NCBI GenBank assembly: GCA_021296345.1
Contig: JAGWAN010000011.1
Location: 1-64,000 of the forward strand
Origin: Acidimicrobiia bacterium
GTDB lineage: Bacteria > Actinomycetota > Acidimicrobiia > Spongiisociales > Spongiisociaceae
DNA length: 64,000 nt
Direction: 5' to 3'
The position numbers and the translations under genes were made by a program. The notes under the pieces are model-generated. The model was not told where the DNA came from, ran no database searches, and saw nothing but the letters and a program-made list of their open reading frames with translations. Positions 48,539 through 54,367 of this stretch are shown here, piece after piece (the stretch's first letter is position 1; each line of letters opens with the position of its first letter).

Positions 48539-49045
48539 GTGATTGCTGTTCGCCCGTCCATGGTGTTGATCGCCGCCGCGTCGCTACTTCTTCCGGCCGC
48601 GGTAGCCCGGAGTGCCCCTGCGGAGGGTCGGTCGTGTGTGGGTCTGAGCCCGCCCGTCGACGGGATCGTCACCACCGACTTCGATCCCGGACCGGGTTAT
48701 GAGGGCCACTGGGGGGTTGACTACGAGGGAGACCACGACGGCCTGGTTCAGGCGGCAGCCGGAGGAACCGTCATCTTCTCCGGCCGGGTGGTACATAACC
48801 CGGTGGTCACAATCGACCACGGGGGAGGGTTATGGACCAGCTACTCCTACCTGGGACACCTCACCGTGCTGAGCGGCGAGGAGGTCGAACGTGGAACGGT
48901 GGTCGGTACGGTCGGAGCCGATACCGGCCATGGCGACGTCCATCTGTCGGTCCGGATCGATGGCGAGTACATCGATCCCCTGCGGGTAGTGGGTTGCCTG
49001 GCCAGGGCGCCGTCCGCCGGCCTCCGCCTGGTGGAGGTGCGGTGA
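48539..49045 (+). CDS. Secreted M23-like (LytM) protein, probably not catalytic
   Basis: A 168-residue protein with a signal peptide (VLIAAASLLLPAAVARSAPA) and a LytM/M23 fold. The first zinc-ligand pair is present (GHWGVDYEGD, HxxxD), as is the YLGHL histidine. The final HxH reads HLS (GDVHLSVRI), so one zinc-binding histidine is missing. It may bind peptidoglycan or activate an amidase rather than cut. Start GTG 48539. Confidence 0.78.
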   Translation: MIAVRPSMVLIAAASLLLPAAVARSAPAEGRSCVGLSPPVDGIVTTDFDPGPGYEGHWGVDYEGDHDGLVQAAAGGTVIFSGRVVHNPVVTIDHGGGLWTSYSYLGHLTVLSGEEVERGTVVGTVGADTGHGDVHLSVRIDGEYIDPLRVVGCLARAPSAGLRLVEVR

Positions 49046-49338
49046 CCCCGCCCGGCGGCCCCTTGCATGCAGGTCCCCCGAGAACACGGAAGTGGGTAGC
49101 CTCACGGGATGCTCATCGGCCTCCTAGGCGGTACCTTCGATCCTCCGCACATCGCTCATATGGCGGTGGCCGAGGCGGCCTTCCGGCAATTGTGCCTGGA
49201 TGCGATCTGGCTGGTACCGGCGGGATCGCCCTGGCAGAAGGAGGGATCGGTGATCACGCCGGCCGAGCACCGGTGGGCCATGACCGTTGCGGCGGTGGAG
49301 GGGATTCCCTACATGGCGGCCGACGACCGCGAGGTGGT

Positions 49339-49416
49339 GCGCCGCGGCCCGACCTACACCTTCGATACCGTGTCGGGCCTCACCGATCACGATGTGACCC
49401 TGATCCTGGGGGCGGA
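49339..49416 (+). repeat. First copy of the duplicated nadD segment
   Basis: 78 bp beginning TGCGCCGCGGCCCGACC, in frame within nadD. Pairs with 49499-49576. Confidence 0.9.
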
Positions 49417-49498
49417 CGCCGCCTCCCGCATCGACTCATGGCACCGGAGCACCGAACTTCAGGAAATGGTCAGCATCGCGGTGGCGCCCCGTCCCGGC

Positions 49499-49576
49499 TG
49501 CGCCGCGGCCCGACCAACACCTTCGATACCGTGTCGGGCCTCTCCGATCACGAAGTGACCCTGATCGTGGGGGCGG
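49499..49576 (+). repeat. Second copy of the duplicated nadD segment
   Basis: Matches the first copy except at four sites, which are T to A, A to T, T to A and C to G. In its own frame the changes would be Y to N, T to S, D to E and L to V. Confidence 0.9.
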
Positions 49577-49690
49577 GCGGGGGCAGGTCGGAGCCTGCGC
49601 TTCCTGGTGCCGGAGGGCGTGTGGCGCTATATCGAAACCAGCGGCCTCTACCGCTGAAACACCGAAGTCCCCTCCGGGCTATGATCCGGG

Positions 49691-50116
49691 TTGACCCAAG
49701 GAGGTGACGCCAATCCGGGAAGGCCGGCCATCGAGGACCAGCTAGCAACAGGTATAGAGCTCACCGCGGTAGAACTTGCCGCCGTCGCGGCTCAAGCCAT
49801 CGATGCCAAGCAGGGAAGCGAGGTAGTGATCCTCGACATGGGCGATCTGCTGGGAATCGTGGATGTCTTCGTGATCGCCTCCGGTACCTCGAAGCGTCAG
49901 GTCCGCACCATGATCGAGGAGGTCAATCTGCGTCTGGGCCGGTGCGGTCGTAAACCGCTGCGCACCGAAGGTCTGGACACCGGTGAGTGGGTCCTGGCGG
50001 ACTATGGCGACCTGGTGGTCCACGTCTTCCAGACGGGCTCACGGGATTTCTATGCCCTGGACCGGCTGTGGGGTGATGCGCCGCGCCTCGGCTGGGCGCC
50101 GGACTCACCGGATTGA
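49691..50116 (+). CDS. rsfS: Ribosome silencing factor RsfS
   Basis: A protein of the RsfS/Iojap family, which binds L14 and blocks subunit joining in starvation: VVILDMGDLLGIVDVFVIAS, GTSKRQVRTMIEEV, TGEWVLADYGDLVVHVF, YALDRLWGDAP. The frame begins at TTG 49691 (141 residues). A perfect AAGGAGGTGA (49698-49707) lies just after that TTG, but no start codon follows it in frame, so the true start is unclear. The nadD-rsfS order is conserved. Confidence 0.9.
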   Translation: MTQGGDANPGRPAIEDQLATGIELTAVELAAVAAQAIDAKQGSEVVILDMGDLLGIVDVFVIASGTSKRQVRTMIEEVNLRLGRCGRKPLRTEGLDTGEWVLADYGDLVVHVFQTGSRDFYALDRLWGDAPRLGWAPDSPD

Positions 50117-53161: not shown

Positions 53162-54367
53162 TCAGAACTCGGCGGAGCGGTAGGCCTGCCGGGCCTTGAC
53201 CCGGGTGCGGTAGTTGAACACTCCGCCGGCGTATACCCTCCCCGCTGCCCTGATCAGCAGGATGATGAAGCCGACCATGATAAGGAACGCGGTCACTTGC
53301 TCCCATGGGGCCACCGAGTCGGACACGGCTCGAACCGGGAGCACGAAGGGGGCGGTCACCGGGACCAGCGTGAGAATGGTCGACCAAACCGTGTCCGGAT
53401 TGCCGGAGACGTAGATGATGCCGATCATGTAGCCGGCCACGGTGACGATCATCAAGGGGAAGGCAGCGTTCTGGGCGTCCTCAGGACGGTGGGCAATGGC
53501 CCCCACCGCCGCATAGCCGGTGGCGTAGACGACGTAGCCGAGCACGAACCAGATCAACGAGATGACCAGGAAGCCGGCATCGACTTCGGGCAGTGTGACA
53601 TCGAGGACCAGGCGAACGGCGACTATCAGGCTTGCGGCGATCGACCCGAACTGCAACAAGCCGAGCAGTCCCACCCCGATGATCTTGCCCGCCAGGAGCT
53701 GCCATGGACGTAGGGAGGAGAGCAACACTTCCGACACTCGGTTGGTCTTCTCCTCGGTGACACCCAGCAGCACCCACGATCCGGTAGTCATGACGGCCAT
53801 GAACAGGAGCACCAGCGCCACCTGAGCGATCAGGAATTGCCGAGCCTCGGCATCGGCATCGGCATCGGGTTCGGCGGTCACGGTCGTCACCCTCTCGCCA
53901 CCCATGATCGCCACTGCCTGCTCGGAAACTTCGCCGGACGCCACCATGCGCTGCACCTGGTAGGAGAGGGCGGCTTGTCTCAGCGCGGCCTCGAGTTCCC
54001 TGGGCGTGTCCTTGCCCACCAGTACCTTCACCGTGTTCCCCCCGACCAGGGCGGCATCCACCTCTCCGTCCACCACCGCCGCTGCGGCCCCGGTGCTGTC
54101 CGAGGATGGGGTGAGTTCGATCCGGTAGGAGCCCGGTTCTTTCGGCGCCATCTCCTTCGCGAGCTCTCCCGAGCCCGCGCTCTCGACGCCGACGGTGGCG
54201 ACCCGGTAGGTGCGGATGGATCCGTCATCCCCGAAGAACCCCGGGATGGCTATGCCTGCGCCGACGAGGATGGCCAGAAAGAGCCAGCTCAGCGCATAGG
54301 ACTTGCTCAGGCCGCGTTCCAGGAGTTCGCGCCACGTCACGAGGCCGACGGCCCTGTAGGCGGTCAC
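53162..54367 (-). CDS. ABC-2 type exporter permease (NatB-like)
   Basis: A 401-residue permease. One N-terminal helix (LSWLFLAILVGAGIAIPGFF), a large extracellular loop (about 55-180), then five or six helices (LIAQVALVLLFMAVMTTGSW, IIGVGLLGLLQFGSIAASLI). The EEKTNRVSEVLLSSLRPWQL segment is typical of the NatB/ABC-2 family. Works with the ATPase encoded upstream, whose stop it overlaps by 4 bp. Substrate unknown; sodium and small molecules are the guesses for NatAB relatives. Confidence 0.88.
   Translation of the reverse strand: MTAYRAVGLVTWRELLERGLSKSYALSWLFLAILVGAGIAIPGFFGDDGSIRTYRVATVGVESAGSGELAKEMAPKEPGSYRIELTPSSDSTGAAAAVVDGEVDAALVGGNTVKVLVGKDTPRELEAALRQAALSYQVQRMVASGEVSEQAVAIMGGERVTTVTAEPDADADAEARQFLIAQVALVLLFMAVMTTGSWVLLGVTEEKTNRVSEVLLSSLRPWQLLAGKIIGVGLLGLLQFGSIAASLIVAVRLVLDVTLPEVDAGFLVISLIWFVLGYVVYATGYAAVGAIAHRPEDAQNAAFPLMIVTVAGYMIGIIYVSGNPDTVWSTILTLVPVTAPFVLPVRAVSDSVAPWEQVTAFLIMVGFIILLIRAAGRVYAGGVFNYRTRVKARQAYRSAEF

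Follow-up and report, generated by a model that had tools for sequence, protein, structure and literature searches.

The nadD gene of this acidimicrobial draft genome contains an internal repeat and two premature stops, raising the question of whether the gene is broken in the organism or only in the record from which it is read. The window, by which we mean the whole 64,000-nucleotide stretch of DNA that was analysed, lies on a contig of 88,062 bases in a draft genome of 2.83 Mb (2,826,246 bases in 82 contigs) that is 94.95% complete and 1.18% contaminated and that was assembled from mixed DNA. The nearest-relative Acidimicrobiia MAGs are, to judge by their isolate names, presumably of marine sponge origin. 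The repeat is real in the record; most likely the gene is an ordinary nadD bearing an assembly or strain-chimera scar, or else a single recent mutation, and a new biological system is less likely than either.

Structure of the interrupted nadD gene

The gene extends from the ATG at 49109 to the TGA at 49657, a distance of 549 nt or 183 codons (Table 1). It resembles nicotinate-nucleotide adenylyltransferase (NadD, TIGR00482) in its GGTFDPPH start, the nucleotide-binding motif present at the N-terminus, in its conserved core up to PRPG, in its native in-frame C-terminus, and in having rsfS and leuS downstream; it differs in that the SSTxIR-type segment is replaced and the frame is interrupted by two TGAs. 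The first 108 residues share 82-87% protein identity with the NadDs of eight of the nine other genomes of the genus and 71% with that of the ninth. When compared with nadD of these nine genomes, the window tracks them to PRPG (49495), continues into the second copy of the repeat, and rejoins them at GRAGAGRSLRFLVP (approximately 49571). Missing from the window are some 105 nt of native sequence, the SGTDLR motif among them, with 87 nt, nearly all of it copy 2, in their stead. Because this native sequence is gone, the event is a replacement and not merely an added copy, a point that the initial annotation had missed. The lost motif, of the SSTxIR type, reads SGTDLR in most genus relatives and SGT[DEY]LR in all nine; its absence from the window's nadD had been correctly noted.

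Table 1. Positions of nadD segments, repeat copies, stop codons and the adjoining gene in the window.
Feature	Position	Strand	Basis
First 129 codons of nadD, native sequence as far as PRPG	49109..49495	+	NadD equivalog models match
Copy 1 of the repeat, native position (VRRGPTYTFDTVSGLTDHDVTLILGAD)	49338..49418	+	Self-comparison; alignment with genus nadD
Copy 2, displaced and out of frame, in place of native sequence; 76/81 identical; last bases overlap native GGGCGG	49499..49579	+	
Two in-frame TGA stops made by copy 2	49556-49558, 49562-49564	+	
Native 3′ end of nadD (GRAGAGRSLRFLVPEGVWRYIETSGLYR, stop), ATG frame	49571..49657	+	
rsfS (ribosome silencing factor), intact, next gene	49691..50116	+	TIGR00090, 99.3 bits vs cut-off 56.9

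The initial annotation had also described nadD as frameshifted, with its C-terminus in another frame. The gene measures 549 nt here versus 567 nt in eight of the nine genus relatives, and because the net change is −18 nt the C-terminus (SLRFLVPEGVWRYIETSGLYR) reads in the original frame, that of the ATG; only the interior of copy 2 is out of frame. What breaks nadD is the pair of in-frame TGAs together with the missing motif, not a lasting frameshift. In place of a single open frame of approximately 188-190 codons, TGA is met at 49556 and again at 49562. The resulting 149-aa product scores 107 bits against TIGR00482, under the cut-off of 112.45, and the gene with read-through scores 112.5, barely at the cut-off. 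Recoding of TGA was ruled out, as read-through would still miss the SSTxIR-type motif.

The two copies form a direct repeat inside nadD, matching at 76 of 81 bases. In 200 codon shuffles of the 549 bp, the best 81-nt self-match was 45 and the mean 39.4, so the repeat is not a product of chance. The internal duplication reported in the initial annotation is therefore upheld, with its offset of 160 corrected to 161, which is still no multiple of 3. Internally, 4 of 78 bases differ between the copies (copy 1/copy 2: T/A, A/T, T/A and C/G), and all four are complement-type transversions, as had been claimed for the mismatches as a whole; a fifth mismatch, A/G, is additional and lies at the right edge of the repeat, the point where native sequence restarts. 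Translated as copy 1 is, the four changes are Y83N, T92S, D95E and L100V. Their earlier description as mostly conservative suits T to S, D to E and L to V, but had omitted Y to N, which is non-conservative. A multi-copy or mobile repeat was ruled out, with 49000-49800 matching a single place in the genome.

Gene neighbourhood and the need for NadD

The genes for an M23-like peptidase, NadD, RsfS and LeuS, the last identified by its sequence without a family match, are found together in this contig and also in the genus relatives as far as their contigs extend, and an rsfS homologue adjoins nadD in the relatives too. An intact nadD is present in all nine other genus genomes, each of which gave one match in a search with the window's NadD. 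More broadly, 88 of the 99 genomes searched, this one included, have a nadD match. Of 73 genomes rated at 90% completeness or more and 5% contamination or less, five had no nadD match at E 0.001.

A review on mycobacteria assigns the last two shared steps in those bacteria to NadD and NadE (PMC7873932). In the draft genome nadE is present and pncB, encoding nicotinate phosphoribosyltransferase, scores 531 bits; nadA has no match, and the sole match for nadC is weak and is the nicotinate phosphoribosyltransferase already scored. With pncB and nadE in place, and with nadA and nadC not found, the step from NaMN to NaAD should have NadD as its sole bridge in this genome. The search for nadA was likewise negative in all ten genus genomes searched, this one included, and with no true nadC in this genome and with pncB and nadE kept, dependence of the lineage on nicotinate salvage appears likely. 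From this gene content, and with no other adenylyltransferase of its kind found, NadD looks indispensable here. Automatic annotation of the draft genome would report a missing NAD-synthesis step, and caution is warranted on that account. The literature matches listed included none on a disrupted nadD in these organisms, which does not imply that such a paper is absent from the literature.

Origin of the replaced segment

At codon 79 the two copies alike have R, against P in every one of the nine relatives (P79R), and because this shared residue is found in no relative, the donor of copy 2 was this same lineage. The initial annotation had proposed a different nadD allele as the source, a view that gains from codon 95, which is E in copy 2 as in eight of the nine genus relatives and D in copy 1, and that loses from N83 and V100 of copy 2, each found in none of the nine, and from the shared R at codon 79. 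Outside the lesion, nadD has no further stop or frameshift. Private changes in the first 129 codons, counted with rsfS and L089 left out, number 5 nonsynonymous and 4 synonymous here versus totals of 15 and 23 for the other eight taxa in the count, a slight nonsynonymous excess in numbers too small for a conclusion. Pairwise dN/dS of nadD against eight close relatives is 0.165-0.297, slightly above most neighbouring genes and within the ranges of the M23 gene (0.175-0.314) and of the gene at 53162-54367 (0.182-0.317, five relatives); this comparison omits rsfS for six relatives and proB for L089, whose rows were spoiled, probably by stop signs lost in the alignment. By these measures the remainder of nadD appears to be without clear decay.

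The lesion is probably an artefact, either a local draft-assembly error or a chimera of strain variants; we infer that it is not in the cells, and most likely the organism has an intact nadD of approximately 188 codons at this locus. Of the causes suggested initially, a strain chimera in the assembly is the one preferred here, and recombination between alleles may yet apply. An artefact is favoured because NadD looks indispensable, all nine relatives are intact and the remainder of nadD shows no clear decay, and because 4 of 78 bases differ between the copies, yet elsewhere the supposedly dead gene has neither a stop nor a frameshift. A further point in favour is the nature of the assembly, a scaffolded draft in which N runs occur; five of these, of 12-238 bases, were found in approximately 527 kb sampled outside the window, some N runs in the genomes examined possibly being masking and not gaps. 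In such an artefact, about 105 nt of nadD would have been replaced in the contig by a slightly different second copy of the upstream 78-nt stretch by means of two template or path switches, the first backward by 161 nt after 49495-49498 and the second forward at GGGCGG (49571-49576), a short string common to copy 2 and the native sequence. The route may have been through chimeric reads, the filling of a gap or the joining of variant contigs. Many putative bacterial pseudogenes are described as assembly errors by Cooley and Wright 2024 (PMC11017572), and the window's nadD resembles these in being an expected gene with internal stops in one draft assembly; however, its lesion is a templated replacement and not a single-base error.

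Next, behind an assembly or strain-chimera scar, comes a real recent mutation inactivating nadD in the strain or in part of its population, created by a short-range template switch or by a 161-nt tandem duplication followed by a deletion at GGGCGG, which we regard as rather unlikely. The 6 nt of GGGCGG shared at the right junction are in its favour, although these bases fit a chimeric read as well as they fit template switching within the cell, as are the lineage's own P79R carried by copy 2, the absence of any N run within the window, and the clustering of mismatches near the switch points, which would suit error-prone synthesis; a remainder of the gene without clear decay also fits a very recent event. 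However, the only NadD found would then be lost with no visible bypass, and 4 mismatches in 78 bases without other damage would require that the copying was mutagenic or that the donor had diverged. The short-range template-switch mutations described in PMC7954356 are similar in that a nearby stretch is copied over native sequence with short shared sequence at the junction, but they come from great-ape genomes, whereas here there is one candidate case, in direct orientation, in a draft genome. Should reads confirm the lesion, nadD would supply a compact and clear-cut example of templated replacement within a gene that looks indispensable, and would point towards a bypass of NadD as yet unknown.

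A real and tolerated loss, with NAD or a later precursor supplied by the host or neighbours and nadD decaying, is improbable. A genus without detectable nadA (0/10 genomes) may already rely on salvage, which would make such a loss easier to accept, but pncB and nadE are kept and would be pointless without NadD, NadD is kept in all nine relatives, and nonsynonymous change is without clear excess. The search for an NTT-type carrier (PF03219) gave no match, the controls were likewise without a match, and the result is uninformative. Slightly more doubtful is a salvage-dependent acidimicrobial lineage truly without NadD, with pncB and nadE kept and with another NaMN adenylyltransferase or uptake of NaAD or NAD making good the step. 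The least probable of the explanations weighed here is a second intact NadD or NadM, either situated in the missing ~5% of the genome, as a completeness of 94.95% would permit, or too divergent for detection. Matches to CTP_transf_like (PF01467) in the draft genome are limited to the window's nadD and two others, CoaD and RibF, so that no second NadD or NadM was found in the 94.95% recovered, and the single match per genome obtained with the window's NadD in the nine genus relatives argues in the same direction; the true loss with a second NadD elsewhere that had been suggested initially finds no backing in this search.

Comparable repeats in this and related assemblies

Several features of the sequence sit less easily with an artefact. 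The window has no N run, duplicated flanks are absent from all five of the genome's sampled N gaps, a plain unmerged overlap of two contigs was ruled out because the right flank of copy 2 differs from that of copy 1, and the four complement-type internal mismatches would not be predicted by ordinary sequencing error. A filter for scars (minimum score 70 bits, minimum identity 88%, copies within 400 nt of each other and not overlapping) passed three short-range repeats in 590,853 of the 2,826,246 bases of the genome, and only that of nadD lies in a recognisable conserved gene, no second such lesion being found in those bases. The same filter gave seven matches in 598,984 bases of the relatives.

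In a same-genus assembly, G008 (L139 2275-2484, G008:C5), an exact 55-nt duplication flanks exactly 100 Ns and splits an ORF. This duplication is a plain scaffolding scar, and it follows from this case that scaffolding makes short in-gene duplications in such data.

The other two repeats of the genome's own sequence that passed the filter, L095 6538-6729 and L120 6510-6630, lie outside recognised conserved genes and come just after ORFs ending at L095:6507 and L120:6418. The repeats at L095 6474-7481 and L120 6510-6630 share a CCTTAGGTT/CCTAAGGTT-like element, which may represent an intergenic repeat family of this genome.
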